A stretch of DNA of 64,000 bases, taken from the NCBI GenBank assembly GCA_032358255.1, contig JAULBX010010545.1, positions 1,670 through 65,669 on the forward strand, written 5' to 3'. The position numbers and the translations under genes were made by a program. Positions 1 to 64,000 of the stretch are shown here, one piece after another (the first letter of the stretch is position 1; the number at the start of each line of letters is the position of its first letter). The DNA is from Heterotrichella gracilis. Its lineage: Eukaryota; Sar; Xanthophyceae; Tribonematales; Xanthonemataceae. The notes beneath the pieces were generated by a model. The model did no database searches and was not told the DNA's origin. It saw nothing but the letters and a program-made list of their open reading frames with translations.

Positions 1-325
1 TTGATCGCAGATGGCCTTCGCTACCTTGTGGATATGGCGCTCACCTTGGGTGCACTGTGCTCCGCCTCCCCCGCAGCTGTCGCTGTGCTGCTGACACCTG
101 GCGGGGGGCGCCTGCTGCCCTTTTTGAATGAATTATCAACGTCATTTTCCTCCCCTTGCCACTAATCGATCAGACCAAAACTGAAAACGACGTCCTCCCC
201 TTGCCCTTGATCGCAGATGGCCTTCGCTACCTTGTGGATATGGCGCTCACCTTGGGTGCACTGTGCTCCGCCTCCCCCGCAGCCGCCGCTGTGCTGCTGA
301 CACCTGGCGGGGGGCGCCTGCTGAC
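1..325 (+). repeat. Direct duplication of an acceptor and exon start (1-117 copied at 207-323)
   Basis: The first ~117 bases recur nearly identically 206 bases downstream. Both copies include the 3' splice site (ttgatcgcag) and the start of the exon that I read at 217. The upstream copy runs into unrelated sequence after CTGCTG, where the real exon continues. Both copies are preceded by or joined through a short tcctccccttgcc motif. The left copy is probably an intronic ghost. Confidence 0.9.
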
Positions 326-3218
326 GGTGCTGGATGAAATATTCTGCCAGCTGCTGCCCCCCCTGGTGGGGATGGACAGCGGCTTGCTGGGGACCGGGGA
401 CGAGGTGCTGGATGAGGTAAGAAAAAACAAAACATTCATAAGGTGTGCAATACCTCTAGTGGCTTAGGAAATACTGTCAAGGGTTTAGCCTCTGCGGTCC
501 ACCCAGGAATACTTCGCTGCTCAGCTTCCCTCAGCAATAAATCCCAATACAAATGTTGTCATACGGCAGGTTCAACATCTGCACGCCTCCTTCTACGGGG
601 TCCTCCCCCGCCTCGCCGCCACCAAATCACCAGCGGCTACCAGAAAACCTTTGCGGAAACCCTAAAGTCTGGAATTTTGTGTGCGCCTGCGGCACAGCCC
701 TACATGGCTGAATTTTCTCTTAAACGCAACCCCAAGATTAATTGTATATCATTGCATCGCAGGTACAATACCTACATGCCTCTCTCTACCTTGCCCTCCC
801 CCGCCTGGCCGCCACCATCATCACCAGCGCATACCTGAAAAACCCTGCGGAAACCCTAGAGGCTCGGGCCAGCACGCCAGGGGAGGTCGCACCCGAGTTG
901 GTTCTTTCGCCCTTGACCAGGGGGGAGGCCCTCCAGGTGGCGCTGACAGCCTCCACAGGGGGGAGCGAGGCTGATTTTTCAGGAGGGGAGGGGAGCGATC
1001 AGCTGATGCTGCATGCTGCCAATGAGCGCTATGGACTGATGCAGCTGGTGGAGCAGGCGCTGCAGCAGGTATGGAATTTTTTGTTGGAATCATTATTATA
1101 GCTATCAGCTGTAGCTATACTTATTATTGTAGAGAAAAGGCCCGAACCGTTTGTTTTCAGCACTGCAGAGGGGGTATGGTGTGTGAACATGGAATGAACA
1201 CATGAGGGTAGAGTGAGGCCGAGATGCATAGCAGGTTTGAATGCAAGCGAGCAGGTAGCGAATAGGCATACCATGCCTATAAGCCCTGACTACTAATCAT
1301 CCTCCCGCAGGGTTGGATCACCCTAGACGACGTCCAATGGGAGTACAGCTGCGCCCTCCTGGGGGCGCCAAGTGGCGCACCCGCAGCGCACCAGCCCCCC
1401 TCCTCCCTCAACCCCTCGTGGTCCAATCCCCACCCCTGGCCCGCACTGGCACCCACGCCAGCGGCGGCGGCGGCGGTTGGGGGGGATGGCAGAGATGGTG
1501 GGGGGCGGCGGGCGGCGGTGGGGGGCGCCACTCGGCGCGTGCTGAACGAGGGGTGGGCACAGCGGGACATCACGCTGAGCCTGGCGGATGACATGGTGCG
1601 TTTATGATCTGTACCTATTACTTAAGTTATAATATTCCTTGTTTACACAGCAACACCCCTGCTGCTTGTGATTGCTGCCCTTCATTGCACGCTCTACACC
1701 CTGGTGCAGGCCCTACCTAGGGCGCGGTTTAGTGTTCAGGATTTGGCAAACCCTAATGTAGCCTCCCTGCCGCAGATGGCGTACTTCGATGAAGCTGATG
1801 GTTCATCGCTGAAGTTGAAAAATTTGCTCTCAGCTTGTTTAGGGTTCAGGCTTTGGCAAACCCTAATGTACCCCCCCTGTGGCACAGATGGAATATGACG
1901 ACGAAGCTGATGACTCATTCGCTGACCTGGCACCCACCACTGATGGGGTGTCGGAGGTGGAGGGGGATGAAACAAAGTGGAGCAGAAGTGGTGGTGGTGG
2001 CAGTGGTTTTGGTGGTGGTGGTGGTGGTGGTGGTGGTCCATCGGCACCCACCACCACCTATGTAGCTCTACCCCCCTCCACCAGCCAGAGCGCTCAGAGA
2101 GGTAATGGGTGGTGGGACGGCGGGGGTTAGTACTTCACATGTGTGCGTTGAAGCACACATGTGACTGCAAAATCTACACACAGAGTGCGCATGTGTGTGC
2201 GTGTGACACTAATAAACAATGTGCAGGGCGGGGCGGCAAGGGGAGCAAGCTGTGGGTGCTTTAACCCTGCACTGTCAATGATGAAAATTGCGCCCGGCAT
2301 GTGGCTTTACGCCCCCCTACTTCTTTTTATAGAGAGCGTACATGCGCAGGGCGGGGCGGCAAGGGGGGCAAGCTGTGGGTGCTGGACGAGCGCATCTACA
2401 ACTTCAAAAAGGAGGGGGCGCGGGAGGTGACGGGTGGGCAGGCGGAGGCCGAGGCGGTGGTCCAGGCTTCAAGGGATGAAATATACGGGCTGGGACGGGG
2501 AGGGAATGTGCCGCTGCGGGAGGGTGGTGGGAACGATGCAGGTGGGTGATGCAGGCAGTGCATACATACAATAATGTTAGAAACAAGCCGAGCATTCGCC
2601 ATGAATAAAGAAACACGGAAGTGAGAGCCACATCCTGTCCTGGAACAGGCACGTCGGTCGAGATGGGTGGGGCGGGCAGTGTGGAACGAAATATTGCCTG
2701 TGCGGCGAGGGTGGTTGTACACACGTGGTTTTTCGGGGAGGGTTTCCATCAGGGTTTCCATTCTACGCGCCAGCTGCTGCAGCCATGCCCTCATGGGTTT
2801 TCGTTTGCTGGCTATAGCAACGTCCTTCAGGGTTACCGCTCGCTAGCTACAGCAAACTCCTAAAGGGTAGAGTCAAAACCCTAAAGTTTTCACTGTCTAC
2901 AAAACCCTAAAGGGTAAAGTCAAGACCCTAAGTCTTGTTAGGTGAAGTTACAAGTTTTCACACCACGTGGCTCCCTTTTCTGCAGGTGCCCAGCCAATGG
3001 CCAGTGGCAGCGGGGGTGTGGATCGAACCCAGGATGTCCGGGCAGAGGAGGGGGGTCAACAGGAAACAGGCGGCAGAGGGGGTGGGGGGCCAAGAGGGGG
3101 GGGAGCAGGGGGGTCCCGGGGGCGGTCGTCCGGTGGCCGGGGGCGTGGTGGTGGTGGTGGGCCGAGGGGCAGGGGGGGACGGAGGGACAAGGGAGGCACC
3201 AGCTATCTTGTGTCGTAG
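217..3218 (+). CDS. ASCC2-like protein, 3' part (5' end outside the window)
   Basis: Six exons can be read: 217-416, 763-1068, 1311-1595, 1888-2101, 2350-2541 and 2986-3218. All have GT-AG borders and consistent phases, giving about 476 codons with no internal stop. The protein has an Ala/Leu-rich helical N-terminal part, an acidic patch (MEYDDEADDSFADL, exon at 1888), a block WVLDERIYNFKKEG followed by EIYGLGRGGNVPL (exon at 2350), and a Gly/Arg-rich RGG tail. The acidic patch, the GLGRGG block and the RGG tail resemble the C-terminal half of plant and animal ASCC2, the activating signal cointegrator 1 complex subunit 2, which acts with the ASCC3 helicase in alkylation repair and ribosome quality control. 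I do not see a clear CUE domain, so the name rests on the C-terminal half; the CUE may lie in an unread exon or be divergent. A candidate TGTAA poly(A) signal lies near 3410. The 5' exons are missing to the left. Confidence 0.55.
565..869 (+). repeat. Ghost copy of the 763 exon start (about 570-672)
   Basis: Sequence after the AG at 569 resembles the true exon start at 763, offset by 193 bases: cagGT..CAA...CTGCACGCCTCC and so on through the CGGAAACCCTA block near 655 and 848. The upstream copy still translates as VQHLHASFYGVLPRLAAT before degenerating. The downstream copy reads VQYLHASLYLALPRLAAT and continues open. Confidence 0.85.
1731..1925 (+). repeat. Ghost copy of the 1888 exon acceptor (exon-like start at 1776)
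   Basis: The intron end and exon start are duplicated at an offset of 112 bases. Both copies share gttcagg-tttggcaaaccctaatgta, a pyrimidine-rich tract, CAG, then ATG-GATGAAGCTGATG or its equivalent. The ghost reads MAYFDEADGSS, the real exon MEYDDEADDSF. A CCCTAA motif lies inside the duplicated unit. Confidence 0.85.
2220..2390 (+). repeat. Ghost copy of the 2350 exon start (exon-like start at 2227)
   Basis: About 40 bases from the acceptor into the exon (cagGGCGGGGCGGCAAGGG..) occur at 2224-2262 and again at 2347-2385, an offset of 123 bases. The upstream copy stops resembling the exon after GTGGGTGCT and runs into an in-frame TAA. Confidence 0.85.
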
Positions 3219-4288
3219 GGGAGGTGCGTACCTTTGGGGTTCAACCAAGTTGGTGGGCTCACCAATGCCGAGCAGCCATGCGAAGGCAAGGATAACTTAT
3301 CCTTAAGCTTGCTACCTTTAACTGTGCATGGGCTTACCCACAAGTGCATCTGCCATCCGCCACTGCGTAGGTTGGGACCGAGACATGTGCAGCTATGAAT
3401 GCTGTTGTGTGTAACTTCGTTTGCCAAATGGCCTCCAACCTCACCTTGAGTCAAAGCTGTTCCAAGTATGCAATTGCTAGTGTTACAAAGGGTCGACCCT
3501 TCCTTCAAACAAAGCTTTCCTAGGTAATCTTTCAGCGCAACGCAGAGTTGGGGGGCTGTCGCAGAAGCGCAACCCTGCACTCAAACACTGCTGCAAGATT
3601 TACATATATCCAAGGAGGATAGTTGTAGCACTTGTGGGGACCGTCGTTTGAGGACCACCGCCTCATAGTCGGGGATGCCAGCCGCTGCAGCGGGTAACGG
3701 GGTGGCGCCGCATGCACATGCCAGCCGCTGCATGCGGGTAACGGGGTGGCGCCAATACAGCCGCCAGTGCCACCGTCAATTGCCTTGAAGAATATATAGT
3801 AACTTGTCCTGGTGACTTGAGATCAACCTGATTCGACAGATCTTGCCACTGGGCCTGGCCCAAGCTGGCTGGCATGTCGCCACACATTCCAACGCACACA
3901 TGAAAATTGGCATCTTTACAATTTCAGTGGCCCGCAGTTCCAAAACATGCATGTGCTATCGGCAAAGCGTACACTGGCAATATTATTGAGCAGCTCCAGT
4001 TGCTGCACCCCTGTCACCAGGCAGACGTCTCCAGACTTGGTGCAGCCAAAATGATGGTTCCATCATGTGGTGCCAACAGCAAATGCAAATCCCCGGGATG
4101 GCCCGGCCCTTGCTCGCACAGGCTGCATGCCAAAAGCCCCACTATCCTGCTGCATTGCCACGTGGCATCGCCCCACTCTGCACCATTGCAATGACCTTGG
4201 TCCGCCCCCACATTCCCCACATCCATGTGTCCCACCCACCACCTCCCCTGCCATCCCCCCCTGCATCGCCACAGCCGAGCACAGCCCC
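3219..4288. other. Convergent intergenic region / 3' UTRs
   Basis: This lies between two convergent genes. A TGTAA near 3410 could end the left transcript, and TTACA at 3916-3920 (TGTAA on the minus strand) could end the CWF19L2 transcript. A short direct repeat (ccagccgctgca..gggtaacggggtggcgcc) is present at about 3678-3752. I see no supported gene here. Confidence 0.5.
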
Positions 4289-7200
4289 TCACTCCTGCAG
4301 CGCCTTGGTCCAATCGAAGGGCTCCCACTGCTGGGCAAACTCCGCTGCCCACTGGCGCTGGAGGGCGCTGGAGTCACCACGTGCGGCGCGGTGCATGTCC
4401 TCGTCCTTGCCCCCCAGGAGCCCCACCAGGGTGCTGCGGCCCAGGTTGGAAGGAAACTGCGGGTGACAATGGAATGGGTTACCAAGAAATTCAGAATGGA
4501 ATGAACAATCAATCAAAAGCCCGTCGCATTTGTTGCCTACATGGACCGTTTCCGTGAAAGCAGCACAGTACACTCCCCTGCCCCCTACACCTGAAACATC
4601 CTTCCTCCTCACCATCAACCAGGCGCACATACTCTAAACCCAAACTTTTAACCCCAGCCCTACATCCCAAACCAGAAGCACACACCATCCAACAGGTACC
4701 CAACTCCTACACCTGAACCTAAACCCTATAAACACACCTGTTCCTTGCCACTGATCAGATATTCAAATCCTGATCAGATATTCCAATCCTGACCAGATAT
4801 ATTCAAATCCTGATCAGTGGCAAGGATATTCAAATCCTGCACCTGCACCTGCACCCCCGCCATACCTTCTCCTCGTCATCGATGACATGCACAAACCCCA
4901 GGGACAGCCCAAACTCCACGTGGAAGTACGGGAAATTTGGGGGGATGGACCCCCGCAGCCCCTTGGTCCCCGTCTCAATCATGCGCTTGGCCGCGTGCTG
5001 CGCCCAGTCCCCAGTGGCGTCGTCGATCCCCTTCTTGAAGTACAGCGGCGCCTTGGCGGAGGCCGATGGGGGCACCGGCACGCACTCCACCACTGCGTGG
5101 CGCCTGGAGTCTGACAGCCGGGTGGCGGTCTCGAAAAACACCACCTCCTTGCCCTGTGCAGCACATGCGCGGTATGAGTTAGGGTTTCATGGAAGCATGC
5201 AGGGTTAGGGTATTGCGACCATTTTGTGGAGTACGCAGGGTATCACCATTAGGGTTCAGGGTTATGACTCCACTGACCACCTCCTCATTGCACTGAGCAT
5301 CAGGCTTCAAGTTTACTCAATCCTTTTCATCAAATTGGTGCACTTATTACATTTCATTTACACTTGAGCATAAACATACAGATAAAGTCTGTTGCTAAGA
5401 TGTATACATTATATAGGTTTAGTTCCTGTGCAAGTTTGGGCTCCGCACCTGCGCCATGAACATGCGGATGAGACACTTTTTGAAGTTGCGCATCTCTGTC
5501 CACGTGGCGTCGTCCACCTGGCGGCTGCTGGGCGTGTGCTCGTTGGGGATGATGGCGCAGTGGCCGGGGGCGAGGCGGCCAGCGGGGATCAGGGCCAGGT
5601 AGCAGGTCTGCGGGTAAAAAAAGCGCATCGAGCATGTGGACATGTGTTTCTTCCCGTTATGCTGGATTACGGTATCTGCACATTACCAAGGCAATGGTGA
5701 GGGTGCACCGTTTCAATACAGGAAGGGTCGTGAGGGATATTGGCGCAGCAGCCGGCGGGGTCTAGAAATCCCAGCAGAAGGCTCTGTTGATCCCTGCCGC
5801 TCCTTGTCCTGCGGAGATGTTCTGCAATGCTATAAGCTTGATAGCATGCCCCTAAACCCTACACAAAACTGGTGCAATCCGCCGTCCTGCACCACCCCAC
5901 GTCGGCCCCTCACCTGCGCAATGGCCATGGTGAGGTGCCGTGCCCGCCGCGCACTGGCAAAGCAAGAGTGCACGCGTCCTGGGGCCACCCTCACGCACCT
6001 GTAGAGCCCCGCACCTGGCGCTGCTTGTCCCTCTGCCAAAACCCTAAACCCTAAAGCCTCACTCTACACGAAGAAGTGTGCATTCCATCACCCACGCCGC
6101 CCCCTTACCTGCGCAATGGCGATGGTCAGGTGCCGCGCCCGCCGCGCGCTGGCAAAGCACAGCGTGCAGGCGTCCTGCGCGGCGCTGGTGCGCCGGTAGT
6201 CCGCCACCTGGCGCTGTTTCTCCCGCTTGGTCTGCTGCTCCTTGGTCCCCTTGGCCTTGCGGCTCTCATACAGGTCCAAACCCTGGTCGTGGTCATATTC
6301 ATCATCGGCATCCAGGTCCCGATCGCCGCGGAACCTGCACAGGGTTTAGGGTTTTGCAAAGGGTTCTAGGTGTTTTGAGGGCAGGGACGAGGGTGTCATG
6401 GCAGGACTGCCAGTTGGCGATTGCCAAGGAGCCTGCACAGGGTTAGGGTATTGGTGCACAAGGTTAGGGTATTGATGCCTTAGAGGACAGGGGTGAGGTG
6501 CTGGTGGCCGGGCGTGTACCTCCCCTCCCCCATTGTACTAACGCGCTTACCCAGAGGGGATGTGCCAGGTCAGCATCGTCACAAAGGATACGGTAATCCC
6601 AACCCCAAATCACTAAACACATGCCGCGAGCATTAGCGCAAGGGGCGCACACTCGGGCACAATGATGCTGGTCATCACCATGCATGGACACCCAATCCCA
6701 CACCTCGTGGCCCTGACCCGCCACCGCCCCACCCACTTTTTCTTGTGCATGATGTTTTCGGCCAGCGCGGCATCCATGTCCCCAGCCCCCTCGTATTTGG
6801 TGCGCTTCACCAGGGATGCCAGGTCACCATCGTCGTCATCCGCAAAGTAGCGCTGCTTCTCTCCCTCCGCATCGTACCGCTGCACGCGCTTGGGCTTGCG
6901 GCCTGCAAGGGGAAGTGATGGTTAGGGTGAATGATGTGCATGCAGGGATAGGGACTCGAGGGAAGTGAAACAGGGGCACTGGTGCAGAGGTGGAATCCAA
7001 GGGAGTGAAAGAGTTACAGGTACAGAGGGTAACAAAGGACATGAGGGACAGAGGGAAATGTACAGATGGAAATGAGCAGTGACACAAGGACAAGAGCAGG
7101 GCACTGGGCAGGTCAACCAATCACCCCCCCTACCAAAGACCCTAGCAGGGTTTTCTCACCTCCATCCGGCAGCCCCGTGCCTGACGCCTCCCTGCCGAAT

Positions 7201-10200
7201 GCGCCCGGCACCGCCCGCCCCTGCGCATCCACCTGCGGCAGCGCCACCACCTCCCTGCGGGCGGCCGCCACATCCGGCGCGTGCGCTGCAGCGCTGGCGT
7301 TGCCCTGCGCCAGGCAATGCAGTGGGTCGGCTGGTGCTACAAGCACTAATTACTTACTACCGTGTACTTCATGTTGTGAGTTTTCTACGCGGGGAAAAAG
7401 AGGGTTTTGTTTCAGCTCCCTGCGGAGCACTGTACTCTCCTGCCTGTTACAACGCTTGCCGCATGCCTGATACAATACTGCGCCCGCAGATTTGCCATAC
7501 AGGGTGGCAGGGTTTTCAAGGCCAGCGACGCTTCACCTGCAGGCGCGCACGCAGCGCAGCCGCCACGATCCGGTTGGTTTTAGGGTTTGGGTTTTATAGT
7601 ATAGGGTTTTCAAAAGCCACCATCGCCACACCTGCAGGCGCGCACGCAACGCTGCCGCCACGTTCCGGTTGGCGCCTTCGCCCCCCCCGCCCCCCAGCCC
7701 CGCCCTCAATGCAGCCGCTACTGAGCGGTTGTCGGCCCCCATAGCTCCTGGTGCAGGCACGGACTTTGGCGCGGATGCAGGGGCATTGTCCTCCCCTTCA
7801 CTGGATTCGGGATCATCTCCCCTGCGGCCGGTGCATGTATTTAGTGCCTGGCCCCACCCCTGGCTGCATTGTCCACCCACAGGGTTCATTTGCCACCCCT
7901 GGATTCATTTGCCACCCCTAGGCTTTCATGCAAGGTTCCAGTTGGGCCTCACAGGTGTGGTGGCAACAAATGGTACCTATGATGGGGGACTTCCCCATCC
8001 AAATACAGTGCAAGTGTACAAAGACCTTGCTACCTTTGGGTGTAACAAATGCTGGCATCACCGTGCCACCCAGTATCTGCTCCATAATTTCCGGCTGCCC
8101 ATGCACATGTATCACCGACAAAATCATATCCAGCTTGCACGCTTGCAACTGGCGCCTGCAAAAACAGTCGCACACAAAAAAAGTAAATATATTACTCACC
8201 TGGCAGATTGCATGCCTGCGCTGTCAGGCGCCTGGGCTCCGGTACCGCTGGCAGCAGGCGCCCTCCCCTGCCCACCTTCCTCCTGCCGCTCCCCTTTGTA
8301 TCGATCCAGGAAGCTCCCGTCATTCTCAAATGTGTTCATCTGGCCCGCAACGGTGCGCAAGAGATCAGCATCACCCTGCACGAAGCGAGGAGTTAATTAA
8401 TTAGTTACAAGCATCGCCCAGCATCGAGGCATGCTTTACTTTGATTACATGCACCGCCCTGCATAAAAACAACGCGGAGAGTGCAGCATCAAATACTCCC
8501 CTGCTTATAACAAGGGATAGATTTGCACCGGTGCAGCTTGATCCCCACCTGCCGACCCAGGGGATCCCTGGGAGGCCGCCTGCCCTCATGCCTAGGTGGC
8601 CGCTGGTGGTGGTGTGCAGCCCTCCTCTCCCCCTCCGCTCCCCTCTTCTCCCCCCCTTCTTCCTTGCTCCCCTTGTCCCCCCCTTGCACACCCTCCTCCC
8701 CCTTGTCATGGTGGTGGTGGCTGCGGTGGTGGTGGTGGTGGTGGCCCTCCCGTGCTGACCTGGCTTCGGAGCGGATGGTGTCATCGGTGTTGAAACCAGA
8801 GTCGTCCTTTACCTTCCCTTCATCCTTGTCCGCCCCTTCCACCTTGTCTTTGGGAGCGGATCGCCCAGTGGACTGCACCCGAGAGGGGCCTCCCCCTCGC
8901 CTGCATGGGCCACAAACCGTCAACACAAACCCTCAACCTATGGACAAAAACTGTACGTTCTGAGCAAAAAAAAACCCATGGTTGCACCACTGCAAGGTTT
9001 TGCTTTGGATGATGCGGTTCCCCATGCATTCCTGAGATGCATTGCCATTAAAGCCATAGCAGACATCTGGCAAGCAGCAGACAAGAGACAAAGACAGACA
9101 TACGGCCATTTGGGATAAATGAGGGCACCCTTGTGGCCAGTGGTACACCAGCATCAAGGAGGACCCTACTGACAACCCTTAGGCCCTTACTGGGCAGGCA
9201 ACACCTCACAAAAGGCAGGAGTGCATGGCGTGCGACCAGTGCAAGGTAGATAGATAGATGGTTTGATGCATCCACTGTTGACTCTAGAAACATAACTGTG
9301 ACCCTAAAACAGGTGCAAGGCGCAACAAGGCTGCGCCACCCACCTCCAGGACAGTGAGGAGTCCTCCGAGGGTTTGCGCATCATGCCCTGGTTTGAACTA
9401 AAGACTGCTGTGCAGGGATTGTAATGGGGATCGAGATTCCACCCCGATACATTTTTAGAGATTTGAGCCAACTCGCTGACAAGCTTCTAGATAGAAGGGG
9501 GCTAAAAAGGTGCAAGGAGCACGGGGGCTGCGATACCCACCGCCAGGACAGTGAGGAGTCCTCCGATGGCTTGCGCATCATGCCCTGGTTGGACTTGACA
9601 TCGGACAGGTAGTGGGGCACCGACTCCTTCCTCCTGCCCTCCTGACCACCCTCCCTCCTCTCCCCTGGCGCACCTCCCCCTCCCTCGCCGCTCGCATGCT
9701 TGCGGTGCTTGGCAGCAGACAGGTGCGCCATACCTGCGAACGCAGCCGTTTAGGGTTTAGTGAATGCTCTAAACCCTAAACCCTAAATAGCCAACAGGTG
9801 GGCCATCACTGCAACATGCACCCATCGCCATCGCCATGTCCCTTACCTGCACTTGAAAAGTTTCATTTTGCAACAGACAGTCGTTGTGGCAACTTCTGAG
9901 ATCGCCATCACCAAGTTATTCGTTTACATTTTGAGTTTTACGAATTCGTTGCACAGCCAAAGATTTTTGGTGGCAAGATTGAGGATCCTCTTTCTTCCCA
10001 TTCCCTACAGGTTTAAGGGTTAGGAATCTAAGCTTCAAGGGTTTGGTGAACGCTAACCGTGCGCCGCATGCCGCTGCGTGAGCCCCGCAGTGAGCTCGTT
10101 GAGGGACCCCCTAGGTTTTAGGGTCAAGAGTCTAAGGCTTAATAATTTGGTGGGTGCTTACCGTGTGCTGCATGCCGCTGTGTGAGCCCCGCTGTGAGCT

Positions 10201-11970
10201 CGTTGAGGGACCCCCAGCGCTCCGCCACCTCCTCGGCCACACTGCCACCCGCTTCCGCAGCCTGTCACATGGGATCCGTTTCAATCACTTGGGAACATAC
10301 TTGATCATATGAGATCAAATTCAATATTGTGGGATCATGTTTGATCCCATGGAATCACCTTCTCCCACTTCCGCAGCTTGGCACATGGGATCACTTTTAA
10401 TCATGTGGGATCATACATTGTCACATGGAATCACAAACCATGAAATGCAGAGGCCCGTTTCCAAGAGCCACAAAACCCCTAACCTCTATCTTGATCACGG
10501 CTGGTGGATGTGGTGCATGGTCACACCTGATCTCCACACATGATCTCGACCTTGTCCTGGCGCCTCCCTGGCCTCCATCCCAACTACCAAAACCCCTAAT
10601 CCCAGAACCATGAACCCTTGTTGCCCACCTGCGTCCTGGCCCTCTGCAGCGCCTTGACCCGCCAGCTGGCGCCTCCATCCATATATACAAAACCCTTGTC
10701 CCAGCAATGCTACACCCTTGATCCCCACCTGTGCCGCAACCCTCTGCAGCGCCACAACCCACCCACCGGCATCTCCATCGCCTATCACAGTCAACCCTGG
10801 TCCCAGCACTACAAACCCTTGAGCCCCACCTGTGCCCTGGCCCTCTGCAGCGCCTTGAGCCGCCAGCTGGCGCCCCCATCCCCAATCACAGCTTTCCCAG
10901 CCGCGCCTGTGCCTGTGCCTGATCCGACAGGCACATGGAGCCCTGGCGCAAACTCCTTGTTGGGGTCCTGTGGGTGGGAAATTGCCCTTTGGTAGGGTCT
11001 CGAGGTAGCGAAAACCCTTGGTTAGGGTTCTGTGATTGAGGGGGTTCACGCCTTGTGCCTGGGATGCTACAGCCTACACTAGTGAGACTAGGCCTTCTCA
11101 CCTCTTGGCTTCAAAGGCGCGTGGTCCTGCTGGCAAGCTTGCTCATGCATACTAACTGCAGTGCTTGTGAGCGACTAGGGTTTAGGGTTTACGCACCGGT
11201 GCAGCTGCGGCAGGCTCCTCCGGCTCCACCCCCGCCTCCTTGCTTTTGGTGAGTGGGCGCACAACTGTCATCCAGTCGTCGCGCTGGGGACCCTTGGCTA
11301 CTTCTGCATCAGCATCCCCAGTGTCTGCCGCTGCCGCAGGTGCAAGGGCGGGTGCGGGCTTTGCCGCTGGCTGCATGTCGAATTCGTCATCAAAGTCGCT
11401 CCCGCTGCTGGCGCTGCCAGGCCCGCTGCGTGGGGAGGCAGGTGCACCTGTACAAGGGTGATGGGAGTGCATTATAGGATTGAAGCTGCCTGATGCTTTG
11501 GATTGTGAGGCTGCGAACGGTCTAGTATGCAGGGTGAGGTGGTGATTTGGGGTGGGGAGTGGAGTAGGCAACCTGATTTGGGACATGAGCCACTCGTGTG
11601 TGGCAGGCGTGATACACATGCAGTTGGTATAAACGCATGTAGTGGAGTTGAGGGTGCCACTGTCTGCAGTACTCTGGCAAGGTCTATTAAACTCCTACCA
11701 CTGCCATTCCCGTGCGCCTTGTGGGATTTCTCCTTGTTCTGTTTATGTTTGTCCTGCACAAGACACAACACACAGTCGAATTTGGCTTATGCGTGGGTCA
11801 CAATTATACAGGCCAGTATGCATGCATATACAGTTATGCATGCATGCGCACTTAGTGCATCACAAGCACACCTTCCGAGCCTTCTTCTTTTCCTTTCTCT
11901 CTTTCTTTTTTTGTTTGCGCTGCTGCTTTTCTACCTCGCCCCGGTCAACGAACTTGACGCCTGAGAGCAT
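4289..11970 (-). CDS. CWF19L2: CWF19-like protein 2 (CwfJ family), spliceosome-associated lariat/debranching factor
   Basis: Fifteen exons, 5' to 3': 11872-11970, 11699-11753, 11197-11447, 10830-10955, 10162-10261, 9541-9733, 8549-8900, 8200-8375, 7632-7821, 7160-7304, 6737-6902, 6109-6334, 5449-5607, 4866-5153 and 4289-4456. They sum to 898 codons. The N-terminus is MLSGVKFVDRGEVEKQQ followed by a Lys-rich stretch. Family hallmarks follow in order: DDWMTV; IGDGGASWRLKALQRA; an AKHRKHA region ending in DSSLSWR; VVALPQVDAQGRAVPGAF; KQRYFADDDDGDLASLV; CTLCFASARRARHL (CwfJ_C_1); a HIT-like PGHCAIIPNEH; ECVPVP with FPYFHVEFG (CwfJ_C_2); and a final WEPFDWT. CWF19/Drn1 proteins associate with late spliceosomes and assist debranching of intron lariats in the nucleus. 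One exon encodes a His-rich stretch. The start is the first ATG of the conserved N-terminus. Recognition is firm. Confidence 0.93.
4743..4825. repeat. Perfect 16-bp inverted repeat flanking tandem 20-mers in a CWF19L2 intron
   Basis: CCTTGCCACTGATCAG at 4743-4758 is the exact reverse complement of 4810-4825. Between them are about three imperfect tandem copies of atattcaaatcctgatcag, and one more partial copy follows at 4826-4840. The region could form a stem-loop of roughly 80 nt. It lies in the last intron of CWF19L2. Confidence 0.85.
5914..6334 (-). repeat. Ghost copy of a CWF19L2 exon end and donor (about 5912-5990)
   Basis: The 3' end of the exon at 6109-6334, including its donor, is repeated 195 bases further into the intron: cacctgcgcaatggc-atggt-aggtgc... 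at 5911 matches ttacctgcgcaatggcgatggtcaggtgc at 6107. The copy degenerates near 6000. CCCTAAACCCTAAA lies between the two copies at about 6040. Confidence 0.85.
7530..7680 (-). repeat. Ghost copy of the 7632 donor edge (junction-like site at 7537)
   Basis: cacctgcaggcgcgcacgca and the following ~30 bases occur at 7535-7575 and at 7630-7670, an offset of 95 bases. The spacer is rich in telomere-like tagggttt (7585-7612). The upstream-coordinate copy is in the intron and does not continue the reading frame. Confidence 0.85.
8706..8760 (-). repeat. His-coding trinucleotide tract in CWF19L2
   Basis: Repeated GGTGGT on the plus strand encodes two His runs (HHHHHH and HHHH, separated by RS) on the minus strand, inside the exon 8549-8900. 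This is a likely length-variable, low-complexity insertion in a poorly conserved part of the protein. Confidence 0.8.
9337..9605 (-). repeat. Ghost copy of the 9541 donor edge (junction-like site at 9344)
   Basis: The donor end of exon 9541-9733 and about 60 bases of exon (cccac-c-ccaggacagtgaggagtcctccga-gg-ttgcgcatcatgccctgg) are duplicated 197 bases further into the intron, at 9338-9392. The copy diverges after the CTGG where the real exon continues. Confidence 0.88.
10030..10261 (-). repeat. Ghost copy of the 10162 donor edge (junction-like site at 10058)
   Basis: Sequence from the intron through the donor and about 50 bases into exon 10162-10261 is repeated at 10020-10110, an offset of 104 bases. 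Both copies include gaatctaag or gagtctaag, the donor, GCCGCATGCCGCTG and GAGCTCGTTGAGGGACCCCC. TTTTAGGG sits at the joint near 10116. Confidence 0.88.
10251..10440. repeat. GATC-rich degenerate repeats with a copied acceptor in a CWF19L2 intron
   Basis: The acceptor edge of exon 10162-10261 (ttccgcagcctgtcacatgggatc, 10252-10275) recurs at about 10371-10394. Between and after the copies, units of the form cacatgggatca...ttcaatca repeat imperfectly. The sequence is intronic. Confidence 0.7.
10615..10885 (-). repeat. Three copies of a CWF19L2 exon end (real donor at 10830)
   Basis: The exon end at 10830 encoding GDGGASWRLKALQRARAQ is copied at about 10722-10770 (decayed) and about 10624-10680. 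The outermost copy still reads DGGASWRVKALQRARTQ with a GTGGGC donor, but I see no AG acceptor next to it, so I treat it as a ghost. Confidence 0.8.
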
Positions 11971-51899: not shown

Positions 51900-54800
51900 T
51901 CACGCATCCCCGTCCTTCTTTGCGGCTTCTTTTGCCGAAGCTGTTGACAGCGCATGCGCAAGCTCGGGAGACCACTCATCGAATGTGGGCTCCCTGTTCA
52001 CTGGACCTGCCACACCACTCTGCCCTGGCGCCTGCTCCTGTGCTGCACTGGCTGCCTCAGCATGGGTGCTGAGCGCTGCCGAACCCCTTGCCTTGGACTT
52101 CCGCTTTGTGGTCCCCGATCCCACGCCACTGGCTCCACGGGCCACGGCTTCCGCCAGTGGCGGCCCATCGCCCACAATCAGCTCCGCCAAGTGCTGCATG
52201 TGCGCCACGCCCTTCATCCCGGCCCGCATGAACTCCCTCAAGGTGGCCTCAATGTCGTCGGCATGGTCCACGAGGGCTGGGTCATCCGAGCCACCGCTGC
52301 TGTTGCGCCGCATCGCGGCGCCGAAGATGTGGTCGGCCTGGGCTACGGATGCGCCACCAGCAACGGGCACGGGGGCCTGCAGCCCAGCCACATGCTGGGG
52401 GCCGGGACTGCGCAGCGCGTTGAACGCCCCGCTGTAGGCGGTGTCCTGGCGCACGCCCAGCGGTGGCGGAGGCAGGCGCGCGCTGCTGCGCGCTTGCTGG
52501 GTGGCCTGCCCTGCAAGCATCTCCTGCAGCCCCATGGTGGGCGGCGCGTGCCTCAGTGGGAACGAGGGTAATCCCCCGGATGGCCGGGGGGTGAACTGGA
52601 ACGACGTCTGCCGGCCAAACCCTCCGCCCAGCACATCCTGCTCCTGACGCTCGCCCTCGGCTGCATCTGCTTGCCTGGCTGGGTTGGGCTGGGAGGAGGT
52701 GAGCTTAGATGTCAACTCGAGAAGCTCGTCAAAGGAGAGGTATGGGGCGGATGGTCCGCCCCTCACGACAGACGCATGGGCTGCACCCGGTGCCTGCCCG
52801 CCCTTGGCCAATTGTGCTCTCCAAAGGTCAACCAGGCTTGATGCACCAGCCCGGGGCAAGGCAAGCTCACTCTCTGACGCCTTGGCAGCGGATGCGTGCA
52901 CCGCGCCCAATGGAGGGACAGGGCTGGCGGCATGCAGGGGCAGCATGGCGGGAGGGGCACTCCCTTGCTCCTTCAACTGCGCACCACTCCAATCCACTTG
53001 CTCCTGCTGCGCCAGACTGATACCCACATGTGCCTTGCTGGCGCTCGCCTGAACTGAATCATGCCCACCACCAGCACCGGCTACAAATGACGCGGGCGGG
53101 TCAGAGGCACCATACAGCTTTGATGCTGCCATGTCCTGCGCTGCAGGGTGGGACGCTGGGCCATCCTGGGACGAGGTGGGCGCGGGTGAAGGCGCGCCGC
53201 CCAGTTGTGCTCCGCCAAACGAGCCAGGGGCGCTGCTGGTGGGCATTACAGGAACGCTGACCACGGGTGAAGCTGACGCGCTGGGCGCGGGCGAGCAGAA
53301 AGGGGACACGCGCCGGATGGACGGCCTCCTGGGGGGGATGCTCATGCCCTTGTGGGCGCCTGCTTCGCTGGCCGTGCGGAATAGCTCGGGGCCTGCGGCT
53401 CCTCCCCCCTGGCTGAGCGCGAGCGCGTGCACGGTGGCGCCCCCCGTGCTCTCGCCCACGCTCCTCTCGCTGACCCCGCTGAGGGGCGCCATGCCCTGGG
53501 TGGGCATGGAGAGCGGGCGCTGCAGCTCCCTGCTGCTGCGCAGCGAGCGCACCACGGCCTGGTGGTGGCTGCGCGTGAAGGCCTCGGCGGCGCGGATGGC
53601 GGCGATGACTGCGGCCATGTCGGGGCGCCGCAGCGGGTCTGGCAACAGGCAGCAGTCGATGAGCTCGGAGATCTCGGCGGGGCACTCGGCGGGCACCCTG
53701 CATACACCCGGAAAGCGTCAGTTATGTTGGCTTGATATCTCGGTATTCCCACTACTTTGTATCAAATTATTGAGTCTTGCACAATAATGTATTCTTTAAT
53801 AAAAAACTAATTTAACAAGCATTTACTTATTAATTCATTATTTATTAAACTCAGTGGTATCAAAAAAAAAATCATAATAAACAGACACTAATAATCGTTG
53901 AAGCACTTTTGCGAGTGCGGCATGCCGACCCACTGCCCAAGGGCAGTGAAGTGGTGGGTGCTTTTGCCTGCTTACACATAGCTTACACAAACACCAGCCT
54001 GGGCTCCACCCGTCTCACCCCCACGAATCCCCGCCTATGGTCCACCAACCCACCTGAGCTCACGCAGCTTCCCGCGCACAGGCAGCTCCCCTGCGCAGAT
54101 CTCCCACATGACCACGCCAAAGCTGTACACGTCAGCAGCCGTGGTCACCAAGCGCGCATCCATCATCTCCAGAGCCATCCAGGACCATGTGCCGGACAGC
54201 GCCTGAGCGCTCATGGTGAACTTCTCTTGCATGATGTGCGCCAGCCCCACGTCAGCAATCTGCAAGATTCACAGCGTGTGTGAAAGGGTGGTTGATAGCA
54301 GCAGGCCACTGGCTGATTGCTGGCGAGGGGGGCAGCTCTAATTTTAGGGTTCAGAGCTCAGGTGTTAGGGGTTATGGTCACTTTTAGCGCTTCCTCCATG
54401 ACCAAGTGCCGGACAGCGCCTGGACATTCATGGTGAACTTAATTTGTACGATGTGCATCGCCCCTGCGTGGCGATCTGCGAGGGTGTTCACGGCGCGCGT
54501 CAGTGGCGCTCGAATGCAGCAGGCAAGCAATCGGTTGCTGGTGAGGGGCTAAGGTTCATGCTAGGGTTTACTCATGCATCCGTCAGTCCTGGAGCAAGTC
54601 ATGACCCAGTGCCAGACAGCGCCTGGGCGCATTGTTCCCATGCATGATGTGCGGCAACACATCGACTATCTGGAGGGTTTTCACAAGGGTTTTGCAAGCA
54701 CACGACTGCAAAGGTTGATGGCAACAGGTTGCCACGGGTGGAAAGCTGCGCAGCGCGTTGCTGTGGTATCTGTGGTACCAACACACTTGAGATGCGCAAT

Positions 54801-57800
54801 CTTTCAAAAAGACCATTGGAGCATGATCACTCTTCAGCTGCGGGGTATTATTATCAGCATTGAGTGGACTATTGCTGCACCTCGGCTTGATGACATTCAA
54901 GACCATCAACCTAGGCATTGGCCCAAGGCTTGTGCGGGAAAATGAAGTGCTAAGCTGTGTTGCCATTGCATTACTCTTTACCCATATTGGAGTGCAATGC
55001 TATGATGGTGTCATAAAAGTGCATTAATTCCCACCTTTGCCAGGCCATCCCTGTTGAGCAGTATGTTTAGGGTTAGGGTTTAGGGTCCACACCTTTGCCA
55101 GGCCGTCCCTGTTAAGCAGTATGTTAGCGCTCTTGATATCCAGGTGAAGGACGTTCTGCTGGTGCAGGTAGTGCAGCCCCAGTGCAGCGTCCAGCGCAGT
55201 GCGATGTCCCCTGCAGCAGGAGGCCATTACATTGGTCACGCGATTGGCGATTGTGATTATGGATTGTAATGCCCCGTTTTAATATTCATTTCAGGTATTG
55301 CAGGCCTACAGAGTCCGCCGCATTGCGATGGGGAGACAATATAATTGTGAAGGTACTGGGCAATATGGTTGTAATCACCCATTTATAATCACGATTATGA
55401 TAGTGCAGGTAGTGCAGCGTCCAGCGGAGTGCGATGGTCCCTACAGATGGGAGACGATTAAGTGGTGTTTGGAATTACCAGTGTGATTGCACATGCGATC
55501 CAAGCCCTAAAACCTGGACCATGAACTTGATTCCTCCATATGCCCACCTATCCCCATCCCACGCCCGCATCCCTTCGCACCCACCTGTTATACCAGCTGA
55601 ACTGCTGGTTGCCAGGCCCGCCCTTGGGGCTTCGCAGCGCGGTGTACAGGTCTCCGCCCGCCATCAGCTCTACAAAATTGGAAAAAAATCATTACATATA
55701 ATATTTTAATACTGTCCTTTTTACTAATAATTAAATGAGATAATAATGGTTGTAAGAAGAGAAAAAAAGCTGTACCAGTCATAATCGCGGTGCGCTGCTC
55801 GTCGAAGGCGGCCCCAAGGAACTGCACGATGTGCGGGTTGCGGCATGCGCGCAGTATGTTGACCTCCTTGACCACCTCCTTGACGTCCTTTTCGGTCATG
55901 GTGATGGGGTTGAGCACCTTGAGGGCCACGTGCAGCGCGCCCTTCCACTCCGCCTGGTACACCTGCACAGGGAGGGTTTTGACAGGGTTTCATTAGGGTT
56001 CTGGTAGGGTTGTGGTTGAGCACCTTGAGGGCCACGTGCAGCGCGCCCTTCCAGTAAGCTGGTGCACCTCCATGGGTAGGGTTTTGGTAGGGTATCATTA
56101 GGATTTGCGGCTGGCAACAGCGCATAGTCTGCACGTACAGTGCACCCATCCACTGCACCTAGTCTACCTGTACCGTTGGGGTTTGAGAGCACTTTGAGAG
56201 CAAGTACTGGTGTGTCCGCCCTAGGAACCCTAAAAAACACTAGCTAGCACATGCGCAGCCCAGTGCATTTCAAAAACCCTACTCAACACCCTTGTCCACA
56301 GATTCAACCGTATAGTACCTACCCCTCTACAAACGCCCTCGCCCAGGATTCAGCCTGACCCGTCCCAAACATGCCCTTACCACCCCCAAACTATCCCTTA
56401 CCGTCCCAAAGTTGCCCTTGCCAAGGACCAACTCCGACCCATCCTCGTTGCGACAAATCACCACGTCCTGGGCCGCAATGTGCCAGTCAAAGGCAGCAAA
56501 GTCGAACAGGCCTGTAGGGTCCCGCGGCAGCCCCCTCCTCTTTGCGCTGCCGGCTGATCCAGACCCCATGGGTGGCTGGGAGCTAGCGCCCGAGCCCACG
56601 CACCCATCGGTGGTGTGCGTGGTGGAGCAGGAGGGCGCCGTTGCCATGTGCTGGAGGCTTTGCCTGCAGGGGGGGCGATGCGGTGAGGCGGTGGAACTGA
56701 AGTGCATTCCAGCAGTTAAGCGAGACCACCGCTTCTCAACAGCAGGGCAAATGGCAGCGACAAGGCATGCATATGGTGTTGCTTCCCAGCTGGCCCCATA
56801 CTACGTCCGAGTGAGTAAACATCTTGGAAACACAGAGTAGAGCAGAGCATGATGATCTAATGGTGGTCATGGTGATTGTCAGTTGACTGACAATGGCTGG
56901 TCATCAGCACTGTTGCCAGATAAATCATGCAATGATGACGGATGTGCATCATGGCCTGATGCTTGGTCAGCATGGTCCGATGTCTCAGGGTTGGAAATAC
57001 AGGGTATTCTTTTCCGTTGTCTAGGGTCCAGGTAATTGGCGGTAAGCTGGTGTCTAGGGATTAGGGTTTTGCAGTCACCTGGATAGCCTCTGCACCAATG
57101 GCATGAGCATCCGGGGCCGCGAGTGGCGCCCCAGCAGCCAGTCAACCCCCAGCGCCACTGCCAGCGCACCAACGGCTACCGTCACGGTCACGCCTGCAGC
57201 TCGCCAGGCGCTCCCCAGCAGGGCACCCGCCCGCTGGAACAGGGAGACAATGGCTGCCAGGGTCACTGGCTGGTGCAGGGTGCGCACGTGGGCCACTGCA
57301 AATACAAATCACAGTTATTTTGTATCACCAATTTGATGATGTTTGATTTACTCGCTGATAAGATGAATAACATGTTATACCACAAATAAGAGGAATATAG
57401 GATTACACTTTTGTTCATTGCTGTTGCCTGACCTTCCGTTCCAATCTGGTGTTGCATGACTTAACAAGCGCAGAAACAGAGTGCTAAAATTGTCTGCTTT
57501 TCAAATTGCAGGTCAGACCACACAAACCCTCGCTGGAGAGCCCTGGCACTGCTCTTTGTGTACCCACCTCTATTCAAGTTCCCTTGCATCACGTAGCGCA
57601 AGCTCTTGGCTGTCCTCCAGGCACCGTTGCTGTCGTCGCTGTATGCATCCTCGCCAAAGTAACGCACACACCTAGACACATAGATACACAGCTAGTCAGC
57701 GACAGACATGCCAGCAACACAGGCGCAGCAGTGGTCAGCCTTGTACATGCAGTGCCAACCAGTTGTGGCCTAGCATTGTGTATACCACCTTCAAGATGGC

Positions 57801-60800
57801 CATTCATGAGAATCAGGTCTTGCGCAATCTGTCAGACAAGTTTTGCGCAGCAGTGGTCAGCCTTGTACATGCAGTGCCAAGCAATTGTGGCCTGGCATTG
57901 TGTATGCTACCGGTAGATTGTAAATTAAACCCAGAATGCTAAAGGTAGCATACAAGTAGCACAAGTATGCTACCATTCAGATCTTGCAAAATCTGGCAGA
58001 CAAGTCCTGCTGCGTCAGGTCAGCCCATGCAGCCCCAGGTCAGCCCATGTGGCCCCACGCGCACCTTGACGCATCGCACACTACATCGCTCCTGACAGTG
58101 GGGAACACGGGGATGCTGTGAATGGGCGCCAATCCCCACTGGCTGGCCTGGAGCTTGGCCCAGGGATGCGAGTAGAAAGCCAGGGATGTGTTGGCGGTGG
58201 CCGCTCGGCAGTCTGGCGTGTTTTTGCATGTGCATGTGAAGGAGGCGGAGCGCATGGTGGCAAGGGGGTTGAAGTCCCTTTCCTGCAAAAGGGGAAGGGG
58301 ATCATGTCGGGAAATTGTTTGTCATCTAGGGACTTTGCACATGCATGTGAAGTAGGCGGAGTGCATGGTAGCCAGGGGGTTGAAGTCCCGGTTCTGCAAA
58401 AAGGGGGGGAAAACATGTTGGCATTGGGTGCTAGGAGGGACTCCGCCCGCTCCCAGAAGGCCAAAGGCAATTCAATTGCTGAGGCAGACACTTTGTTTTA
58501 TGAACAGCATGTGAAGGAGGCTGAGTGGGTGTGCAATGCTGGAAGGTACGGCCAACGGCAGGCAGACATACGAAACACACGCTGCCTCATTGCAATGGAC
58601 GCCCAGTGTAGAGCTGTGGCGACAAAGGGTTAAGGGTCAAGGGTCTGTAGCGTTCTCCATGCCCGGACACATCCGCACCAGCATTGTCACGCAGTCGTTG
58701 CATACACTGGCGCCATGCTCAAAACATGCTGCTGTCCAAAACGATCCATTATTTTGCCTCCTTTTGTCTTCATCTCATGCAACGCTAGAGCAGGGCCCTA
58801 CGCACCAGCATTGCTGCGTAGTCGATGTATACCTCCACAGGCGGCATGCTTTCACCTGCCCAAAACAGTATACCATTTTGCCTCCTCATGTGTTTATCTC
58901 ATGCAACCCTAGACCAGGGCCCTACGCACCAGCATTGCTGCGTAGTCGATGTACACCTCCACTGGCGGCATGCGCGCCTGCCACACGCTGGACCACGCGG
59001 GGGGGCACTCCTCTGCCCGCTCCTCAGACAGGCCCCGCATGGTGAGGGTCTGGCACAGGCGCCAGCTGCAGGTCACTATGGGGTCTGCAAGCACAGGTGC
59101 GTGTTGTACTCAGAGGGTGGTTGCGTGTAAGTGTGACTGGGGTCTGCATGCGCAGGTACATTTAGTACTTGGTGAGTGATTGCGTAGCACTTTTGGGGAG
59201 TAGTTACTGGGCAGCTGCGCGTCTCTATGGAGTCCAGGCCCAAGCCGCACCCTTGTACATGGCACAACACACTGGGTGTGTTCCATCTAGCAAGGCACCA
59301 AAAAGGCGCCAGGGAGGCATCCTCAACCAATCAACGTTGGGGAGTGGTCACCCAATGGCTGTGCCCAGCACCCACCTATACTGAAGTTTGCGTAGACGTA
59401 GTCCACCACTGCCCCAGGGAATTTTGGCACCCGAGCCCTCTCGATGGGATCAAGGGGGTTGAAGTCTACGTAGGGCTTGGGGCCATATTTGAAGCTGCCG
59501 TTGATGGGTGCGGGATCTAGGAATCGCATGGGCAAAGAGGTGAGCACATGGTTGCTGTTCTGGATCTGCACCATGGAGAACACACAGCATGGTGGTTAGA
59601 TTGATTTCAAAGCAAAGCTACTTTTGAGAATGGTTGGGGAGGCACACAGGCTGTCAGTCAGTTGATCCAGAAACCTGAATAAAGTGATTGCTGTTCTGGA
59701 TCTGCACCATGGGAGACACACAGCATGGTGGTGAGTTCCAAAGCCAGGAATAAGCCTGGAAATGGAGGAGACACACAGGCTACCAGTCTGTTCTAGGTTC
59801 AGAATACCACATTGTGGCCCTACATTTGATGGCCGCTAGTGCTAGTACAGTACTGCGCTTGGTCCAATGTATGCACTGTACGCACGTGCGCTGTGTGCAC
59901 CATACACGGGTGCATGCCCCTTCCAGTTGATGCTTATGCATATTGGGTCCTTGACACAGTCCTCCATCCTACCTAGTGAACAGACAGCCATGTAGTGTAA
60001 TGTAATGTAAGGTAAGGTAAGGTAATGTATTGAACAGACAGCCACAAGTCCCAAAGCCAGCCTCACCAGTCTGAACACCTGGCTCCTTGACCACACGCCT
60101 AGAGCCTAAACCCTACACGCACCAGCCCACAAACCCTACAAACCTGGCTCACCAGTATCAGGCAGGACAGCTGCTTGCGGAACAGCATCTCGCACTCCCC
60201 ATCGTCCATCGGCCCACAGCTGCGGACACACTGCAGCCCCACAGTGGACGCCTTCACCCGCCAGTTGGCTGTGAGGTTCATCCTCCGGAAGCCCGGCCCC
60301 TGGCCGAGGCTGAAGGTCAAGTTGAGCTGCAGGTTCTCCTTACCCCTGCAGGTAACATGGTTTGGGTGAATTGTAAATGACATTTAATAAATGTGCTTTA
60401 TTTTTGCCGCTACAAGCACACCCACTGGTACAGGAAAAATAGAGAGGCATAATTCATAGAGTGAGTAGACCTAATACTTTAATGCACAATTTCAGGAGGA
60501 CTTAATACATCACATGATATATTAAAGTCCTCCCGACAAAAAAATGATTTTCTTAACAGATTCCATAAAAATTGTGGCTATAAAACATGTGGTCGGCATT
60601 CACCCGCACTCGCACCCGCACCCGCATTGGCCGGAGATCACACGCAATGTCTCTCACACAACCGCATTCAATGGGTGTAAGCTGCCAAGTTGGGCAGATC
60701 ATGGCATGTGTGGTAAGGCAAATTCATATAGATGGATACCTGCTGTCATAGCCATTTGACTCCCAGAAGGCATCGGGCGTGGGGCAGTAGTCCCAGTCGC

Positions 60801-62769: not shown

Positions 62770-64000
62770 CCAGAAGCCGAGGCGGAAGCTTCACTGGCTC
62801 GCGCTCAGCGCATAGCGAAGCCCACTGGTTCAATAGGCTCCTTGGTGCCGGTGGCTGTTCGAATTGGAGTGCAATGGCAGCTGCGTACTTGGGTAGCATG
62901 TGCAGGGAGGAGGAGGAGGGTGATACACGCAACGAAGCTTCGGGCTCAAGCCTAGTACTCCCCAATAGCTCGTGGGCATTGAAACTATTGGTCGTCCTCA
63001 AGCCTGAGCCCTTCCAACTGGGCGAGGCTAAACCTGGGGCAGCAGTGGCAGCAGGGTAATAGGGTTGAGAACACTGGGGACAAGGAAAGAGTCCAATTCA
63101 CATACTCGAGGTTGCGGTAGAGGGAGTGACAGGCGTAATAGCTTGCAGCGTCTTTCGCCTGTCGCCCCCCGCTACCGCAATCTTGAGTATAAAGCTATCC
63201 TCTTGCAAGTTCTGCGCACAGTTCCTGTGGGCGCTGACCTACACAGGAGCACCTGCACTCGTACATACCACCTAACAGGCACACAAGCTTTGGGCGTCGC
63301 AACGACTGCGGTGCCACGGCATCAGTGTGCTTCCTACCACTGGGAGGGCGTGGGTAGGGTCCACATTGCGGTAACTAGGTGCTGTGTAGTAAGCCCCACC
63401 TTGTTCGAACCTGACGCTTGCCTTGCTCGGTGAGAGGACCAAGCACTGCTCTTTACTACTATATTGCCGACGATGGACATGGGCCCACAACCTCAGTATA
63501 CAGGTCCAGTCGGTATCCAATACTTCGATTATCGTTCGAATTGCACCCGGTTCACCGGTTCAGCATTTGATAGGCCACACCTCGCTGAGCTAAGTGTCCG
63601 ATCGATCCAGCGCGGTGGTGGGCGAGGAAAAACAGGTAGAATACAGCGAGCTGCATAGGAGGTTTAAGAAATTGGCGCATGGGTGCGGTCCAGAACGACG
63701 AAACGACTCGAGTAAGTCACGACTCAAAGTGCTTATTAGGCATAGGACGTGGCCCCGCAGAACAGAAAGGGACACCTCTCCACCCTATCCAGTCAGCGGG
63801 AAGGCAAACTGTCAACCTGTAAGTCAACACTGCCCAGCAGGACCACCGCATTGCTACGCATATTGGTCGCCGCGACGGCGATTGCTTGGCGTCTATGGCA
63901 GTGCCCAGTGCCCATACCCATCTGCACATGCCAGAACAGCCTGAACCAAGGCTCAACCATGCTTCGCTTACTGCAACTTTGCCGCAACCCCCTGCCTAAG
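62770..64000. other. RLK-C upstream region
   Basis: The promoter side of RLK-C. No gene is supported to the right edge; the open frames are short and motif-free. A hairpin element is present at 63102-63190 and is listed separately. Confidence 0.4.
63102..63190. repeat. Imperfect 33-bp inverted repeat (hairpin or MITE-like)
   Basis: The left arm, 63102-63134 (atactcgaggttgcggtag..tgacaggc), pairs with the right arm, 63157-63190, with about five mismatches and one bulge, around a 22-base loop. It could be a small foldback element or a hairpin RNA precursor; the sequence does not distinguish these. Confidence 0.75.

Follow-up and report, generated by a model that had tools for sequence, protein, structure and literature searches.

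How do introns come to carry decayed copies of the edges of the exons beside them? In a 64,000-nucleotide (nt) stretch of the genome of Heterotrichella gracilis (contig JAULBX010010545.1, positions 1,670 to 65,669; hereafter the window), an earlier note had pointed out 'ghosts', intronic copies of an adjacent exon edge together with its donor or acceptor splice site. We find that these copies are real, that they accumulate at splice junctions beyond the level expected from a null model of selection, and that the seam between an exon edge and its copy is enriched for the telomeric repeat of the organism. This seam, which is absent from the earlier note, is the best clue to the origin of the copies. 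Judged from sequence, the ghosts may well be the scars of breaks at exon edges, often patched with telomeric repeat and hidden by splicing, a reading to which we give about half of our confidence.

The DNA analysed comprises 314 kb (the window, C13:1-200000 and C90:100001-150000) of a 68.5-Mb genome in 903 contigs, together with 28 short loci; the counts below refer to the 314 kb unless the window or the genome is named. Exons and junctions were taken from a self-trained 13-state hidden Markov model (HMM) gene finder, trained on the 314 kb without any junction coordinates being given. All exon and junction counts therefore rest on HMM models, derived from sequence and not from RNA, in which stops are forbidden by construction; two of three predicted proteins tested had Pfam domains above cut-off. 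Local direct repeats were detected with blastn (E ≤1e-3), excluding offsets below 25 or above 800, simple-sequence segments and lower-scoring overlapping matches. The resulting 78 duplication events were reduced to 76 classified events once offsets above 400 were removed. Of these, 53 were assigned to exon edges, but two (C13:102728 and C13:132221) have no intronic base in the exon copy, which gives a strict count of 51. Both are still included among the 46 exon-edge events whose seams were tested, and the use of strict counts left the odds of the readings unchanged.

When the window was aligned with itself by blastn, 50 local direct repeats were obtained, among them the pairs of the earlier note. 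At E ≤1e-3 we recovered 14 of the 15 pairs listed there; the other, 16178/16293, is weak (31 nt, E = 0.008), and in the HMM models that exon begins at 16276. The second coordinate of a pair falls exactly on an HMM exon edge in 11 of 15 cases (217, 763, 1888, 2350, 6109, 7632, 9541, 10162, 14254, 55093 and 58930), and for 55911, 58231 and 59552 the nearest HMM edges (55962, 58282 and 59565) lie inside or beside the copies. Ghosts had been claimed for at least seven of nine genes; indeed, of the nine genes predicted in the window, eight have introns and seven of these carry at least one ghost. The offsets given for the pairs are 58-206, but the range is wider, with maxima of 232 (window) and 381 (C13). 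The copies are 70-96% identical, and this divergence leads us to reject assembly artefacts, with the possible exception of a copy that is 100% identical and lies beside an N gap (C13:188286).

In an edge test, the adjacent 50-nt exon edge was aligned into its own intron, for introns of at least 60 nt with both exons present, and a score of at least 30 was called a ghost. A ghost of the adjacent exon edge was found in 40 of 304 introns, on the donor side in 26 of 295 and on the acceptor side in 19 of 302. Chance repeats are rejected as an explanation, since non-cognate edges from other genes reach this threshold in 0.06-0.09%; segments deeper in the exon gave 1/247 and 3/261 matches, then 0/159 and 0/166. 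Ghost-bearing introns are unevenly distributed, with 19 of 56 in the window, 17 of 192 in C13 and 4 of 56 in C90 (21 of 248 outside the window). Thus, the high density described earlier holds for the window, which is unusually rich, but is not the genome average. Introns with a ghost are about 110 bp longer than those without (median 413.5 bp compared to 304.5 bp), which supports the suggestion that the copies lengthen introns. The creation of introns had also been suggested, but there is no resolved case among the 78 events. At C13:104476/104975 (sample positions 104476-105255; offset 499), both copies contain exon and intron sequence, and this pair could be a duplication of an exon-intron unit or an intron gain.

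Some bias towards junctions is expected from selection alone, since duplications that cross a junction can be spliced out while exonic duplications cannot. In our null simulation, duplications were placed uniformly in the same genes, exonic ones were purged, intronic copies were decayed, and the same detection was applied. Junction-crossing events make up 51 of 63 intron-related duplications by the strict count, compared to 34% in the simulation, and we reject selection with decay as the full account. Among copies of at least 85% identity, 21 of 27 cross a junction (P = 4e-6), as do 12 of 17 at 90% or above (P = 0.003), compared to simulated shares of 0.34-0.35. The intronic overhang is 13 nt or less in 14 of the 21 strict events at ≥85% identity, compared to 25% in the simulation (P = 6e-5), and the median exon part of the copy at this identity is ∼33 nt. 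Intergenic DNA, by comparison, makes up 40% of the bases but holds 3 of the 76 classified events. Within this sample, duplications are thus not equally common away from junctions, and the evidence from the window and from two other contigs supports the recurrent, junction-linked process that had been proposed.

The events have an edge-seam-edge structure. In the alignments, direct repeats flank a short filler, as a staggered-break fill-in duplication would leave them, and the second copy is usually not followed by a further occurrence of the filler (for example 55032/55090). The telomeric repeat CCCTAAA is found in the seam of 22 of the 46 non-overlapping exon-edge events, compared to 5.1 expected. 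This is the organism's own telomere repeat (CCCTAAA/TTTAGGG), present as arrays at the starts of contigs C70, C140, C526, C609, C717, C770 and C824, and in those 22 seams, though not in the other 24, the insert is thus of the kind expected from telomerase-mediated insertion. Telomeric tracts are largely intronic, with 144 in introns, 19 in intergenic DNA and 3 in exons, while scrambled heptamers of 19 classes gave 2-19 intronic tracts. Duplication of the flanks, as expected from break processing, was observed at 29 of 123 intronic tract clusters, compared to 34 of 620 control intron positions and 0 of 19 intergenic (score ≥45, telomeric 7-mers masked), although the clusters are partly nested in shared arrays and are to that extent non-independent. 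Similarly, a telomeric tract is present in 27 of 40 ghost-bearing introns and 51 of 264 others (P = 2e-9, a raw value, since ghost-bearing introns are longer); outside the window the figures are 13 of 21 and 32 of 227 (P = 3e-6, again raw, with differing lengths).

If the ghosts are the scars of breaks, the sequence of events might be as follows. A staggered break would have one nick within the exon and the other slightly beyond the splice site. The 3' ends would be extended by telomerase with the organism's own telomeric repeat, or a telomeric or other piece would be captured, and the overhangs would then be filled in and joined, leaving exon edge and splice site in duplicate on either side of a seam of ∼10-150 nt. 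With use of the outer splice site, the seam and the inner copy would become intron and the protein would be unharmed; hence, junction-crossing events would survive and purely exonic ones mostly would not. Some units, including the telomeric seam, would later amplify into arrays. We infer the first three of these steps, as well as the identity of the enzyme and any involvement of transcription or splicing. As to why breaks should fall at exon edges, transcription-linked structures are our guess; exons are richer in guanine and cytosine (63%) than introns (52%) or intergenic DNA (51%).

Extension of 3' ends at a break predicts that the G-strand of the repeat points outward from the exon, a type of prediction that was set beforehand. 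Genome-wide, the G-strand tends to point outward on both sides. Exact-pattern searches, in which overlapping matches within one tract are counted repeatedly, gave 50 matches for a donor followed by G-rich repeat, 1 for a scrambled donor followed by G-rich repeat, and 24 for a donor followed by C-rich repeat (10 with a narrower variant). Acceptors were preceded by C-rich repeat in 144 matches and by G-rich repeat in 38, but the CTGCAGG in these patterns is partly palindromic, such that, on inspection by eye, a donor on the opposite strand can be read in 11 of the 38 G-rich matches and likewise in 11 among the C-rich matches listed. In the 314 kb, 11 C-rich and 0 G-rich tracts lie within 25 nt of an acceptor; around donors, 35 tracts (18 C-rich, 17 G-rich) have their start at a distance of at most 25 nt, compared to 7 over the 25 nt that follow.

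From the 50 donor-G-rich matches we took the first 20, irrespective of ghosts, as a genome-wide sample. A downstream ghost of the exon edge (score ≥30) is present at 12 of these 20 sites, compared to 26 of 295 for all donors, with slightly different masking. Non-cognate scores reach 33 in this sample, and the positives L044 (33) and L043 (35) are marginal; at three of the 12 positives (L048, L050 and L061), the matched edge itself holds telomeric repeat and the site is a unit of an array. At eight further loci, a biased choice since they were picked from the matches listed because the pattern occurred twice nearby, the unit that recurs consists of exon edge, splice site and telomeric repeat, and some units are present in several copies.

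Three consecutive genes of the window, all on the minus strand, are paralogues with a kinase-like region. Paralogues A (28706-34833) and B (40737-46296) are close and C (51903-62193) is divergent. The three share several exon lengths, which makes them well suited to a study of how introns change. Three of eight tested junctions carry ghosts in all three paralogues, although the donor ghost of A is modest (score 30, with a null maximum of 25). By eye, the ghosts of A and B share changes, while the acceptor ghosts of C derive from C's own exon: the two score 90 and 56 against that exon, and in each case 30 and 26 against the others. A single ancestral origin of all the ghosts in A, B and C is not supported, since the C acceptor ghosts fit C's own exon far better. 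It would appear that some junctions are hotspots or, alternatively, that homogenisation takes place between a ghost and its exon.

Several observations weigh against breaks patched with telomeric repeat. More than half of the tested events (24 of 46) have no recognisable telomeric seam, and in some arrays each unit has its own telomeric tract, which fits duplication after insertion. The excess of short intronic overhangs is weak over all identities (17 of 51, P = 0.056). Within local seams, C-rich repeat is nearer copy 2 by 7 versus 4 and G-rich repeat nearer copy 1 by 7 versus 10, which gives no clear direction; intronic tracts are C-rich rather than G-rich by 102:42, with equal numbers near donors. 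Moreover, selection on splicing motifs could mimic the asymmetry of tracts near splice sites, in that G-rich repeat on the sense strand creates cryptic TTTAG acceptors and C-rich repeat looks like branch and pyrimidine signals.

The main alternative, which we regard as possible though distinctly less probable than a break scar, reverses the order of events. Intronic telomeric tracts near splice sites, placed there by a role in splicing or by earlier arrival, would cause duplication of the exon edge through template switching or slippage. Arrays with telomeric repeat in their units (L035, L037, L038, L041; C13:47155) are consistent with this order, the orientation that tracts show close to splice sites could agree with motifs used in splicing, and part of a review describes telomeric tracts in reporter introns that cause rearrangements and expand (PMC6410037). 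A plain tandem duplication, however, would repeat the telomeric tract. Young events with telomeric repeat in the seam and none in the 30 nt after copy 2 (window 55032, C13:35517, C13:48480, C90:24201 and C90:42408) thus count against it.

A further account, which we consider unlikely, is that ordinary tandem duplications occur everywhere, that selection retains those in introns and at junctions, and that the telomeric repeat is incidental. Exonic events would then be purged, and of the six wholly exonic pairs, five are offset by a multiple of three (369, 105, 102, 66 and 75) and one is not (88). But intergenic DNA should in that case hold many duplications, and it holds few; the junction excess also persists against a simulation that includes both purge and decay, and the telomeric enrichment of seams speaks against an incidental repeat.

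It is less probable still that ghosts are retained for a function, whether as alternative splice sites or as exon ends, and are not passive scars. The splice dinucleotide of the ghost is intact in 46 of 51 events, and in 28 of 34 events with at least 14 intronic nt, compared to 62% expected (P = 0.009). The median score of ghost donors (3.87) equals that of all real donors, while ghost acceptors score 2.64 compared to 4.07 for real ones. At C90 sample positions 40086-40393 (L033; ghost C90:40313), the copy is 96% identical with an intact donor, and is partly called exon by the gene finder, which makes it a candidate alternative exon end. Since ghosts mostly keep GT or AG and ghost donors score like real ones, it is plausible that ghost sites seed alternative splicing, as had been suggested. 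Nevertheless, the remainder of each ghost decays, many offsets break the frame (206, 193, 110, 98 and 94), and function is silent on origin. Finally, introner-like mobile elements with long target-site duplications are very improbable: introner elements are insertions removed by splicing and the insert is here flanked by direct repeats, but among 306 introns (telomeric 7-mers masked) 7 pairs from different genes share at least 40 nt, 4 of these pairs joining paralogue A with paralogue B, a non-local match was obtained for 1 of 30 fillers, and we reject an introner family within the 314 kb since no family of inserted sequence is shared across introns.

The scars that we favour have partial counterparts in known systems, compared here from portions of the published papers. 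Interstitial telomeric insertion at double-strand breaks has been described in mammals (Nergadze et al. 2007, PMC2246262), where duplication accompanied 6 of 130 insertions in rodents and 4 of 25 in primates. The likeness lies in an organism's own telomeric repeat placed inside chromosomes at sites of (here presumed) break repair, sometimes with target duplication; the differences are that here 29 of 123 intronic clusters have flanking repeats, that the duplicates are tens of nt long, and that the tracts are largely intronic and near splice junctions. In mouse cells, small tandem duplications arise when 3' overhangs (43 bp in one assay) are filled in by Pol alpha-primase and CST, the complex that fills in the telomere C-strand, and the ends are then joined (PMC8355091). 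The duplicate in our events could likewise come from a filled-in 3' overhang, but the mouse duplications are, in the portions compared, without a telomeric seam or a preference for splice junctions, and the word intron is absent from the main text. Duplications that involve splice sites are reported in Drosophila (PMC2809761) and in potato RdRp, where the duplication crosses the intron-exon boundary (PMC4974935); in both cases introns are created, whereas here existing introns enlarge and one copy turns intronic. Among green algae, interstitial telomeric repeats are mentioned in Chlamydomonas, with chromosome fusions suggested (PMC6549138), and the portion of the Coccomyxa genome paper compared makes no mention of intronic telomeric repeats (PMC3446292). 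Among the matches listed in the open-licence literature on intronic telomeric repeats and junction duplications, of which we compared portions, no description was found of a telomeric seam combined with duplication of a splice junction. Because known models of intron gain create introns and here introns grow, we place the ghosts with known break-repair scars and not in a new class.

The growth of introns and the source of new intronic DNA are poorly settled. Extrapolation from 40 of 304 introns suggests that candidate events are very numerous in the genome and span a gradation of ages, and the telomeric signature of the seam names a candidate enzyme, which makes the question testable in an alga. 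If breaks are indeed the origin of the ghosts, splicing would shelter break-repair scars that are otherwise ruinous to a gene, and breaks would concentrate at exon-intron boundaries.

Table 1. Ghost copies mapped in the window, with the exon edge that each resembles
Ghost of	Position	Strand	Details
acceptor + exon edge 207-342 (exon 217-416)	1..136	+	93% over 136 nt, 70-nt filler
acceptor + exon edge 759-864	566..670	+	79%
acceptor + exon edge 1837-1925	1727..1812	+	81%
acceptor + exon edge 2342-2383	2219..2260	+	95%, 81-nt filler
donor + exon edge 6091-6227	5896..6034	-	80%; seam with telomeric tract 6036-6059
acceptor edge 6312-6356	6410..6453	-	80%
donor + exon edge 7603-7672	7509..7577	-	86%; telomeric tract 7576-7609
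donor + exon edge 9502-9593	9304..9396	-	87%
donor + exon edge 10113-10215	10009..10111	-	83%; telomeric tract 10112-10141
acceptor edge 10248-10317	10364..10433	-	79%; ghost AG decayed to AA
donor edge 10671-10891 (array)	10571..10790	-	offsets 100, 201
acceptor edge 14187-14267	14089..14166	+	86%
acceptor edge 30747-30803 (weak)	30819..30884	-	73%; ghost AG decayed; missed by paralogue edge test
donor edge, exon 31459-31576 (paralogue A)	31397..31421	-	score 30, null maximum 25 of 60; coordinates from intron offset
acceptor edge 31539-31619 (paralogue A)	31687..31768	-	blastn and edge test
donor edge 32558-32639	32449..32531	-	blastn and edge test
donor edge 42635-42669 (paralogue B)	42563..42597	-	89%
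acceptor edge 43647-43686 (paralogue B)	43771..43810	-	85%; telomeric tracts 43699-43718, 43748-43767
acceptor edge 54178-54330 (gene C)	54395..54548	-	71%; tract 54343-54378
donor edge 55090-55125 (gene C)	55032..55067	-	94%; 22-nt seam almost wholly telomeric repeat, tract 55070-55086
acceptor edge 55169-55216 (gene C)	55401..55446	-	blastn; edge test adds one more ghost of this edge
acceptor edge 55905-56000 (gene C)	56011..56105	-	85%
acceptor edge 58223-58310	58334..58421	-	82%
donor edge 58801-58973 (array)	58674..58849	-	79%
acceptor edge 59549-59663	59685..59792	-	75%

Other features of the window were noted in the course of this work. The gene at 4292-11472 is CwfJ/CWF19-like, with the Pfam domains CwfJ_C_1 and CwfJ_C_2, and the nearest named matches of its protein are from Parachlorella kessleri (64% identity) and Trebouxia (63%), with 98-99% of the query covered, and on this evidence the DNA is probably that of a trebouxiophyte-like green alga; a search with this one gene region found no allelic or haplotig copy that could serve as an empty site. 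An Rfam scan of the window at gathering scores gave no match, and of ten long open reading frames of the window compared to Pfam, eight had no match and two had weak kinase matches below cut-off. At 30962-31327, an intron contains an array whose 74-nt units include telomeric repeat and which is broken by an N run of the assembly. Large repeats are found within one exon at 28745-29449 (336 nt at offset 369) and 29388-29588 (96 nt at offset 105), both offsets being divisible by three. Elsewhere in the genome, the first ∼90 bases of contigs C203, C234, C301, C464, C580, C613, C694 and C786 consist of GTAA-type tandem repeats, which are perhaps sites of assembly breaks.

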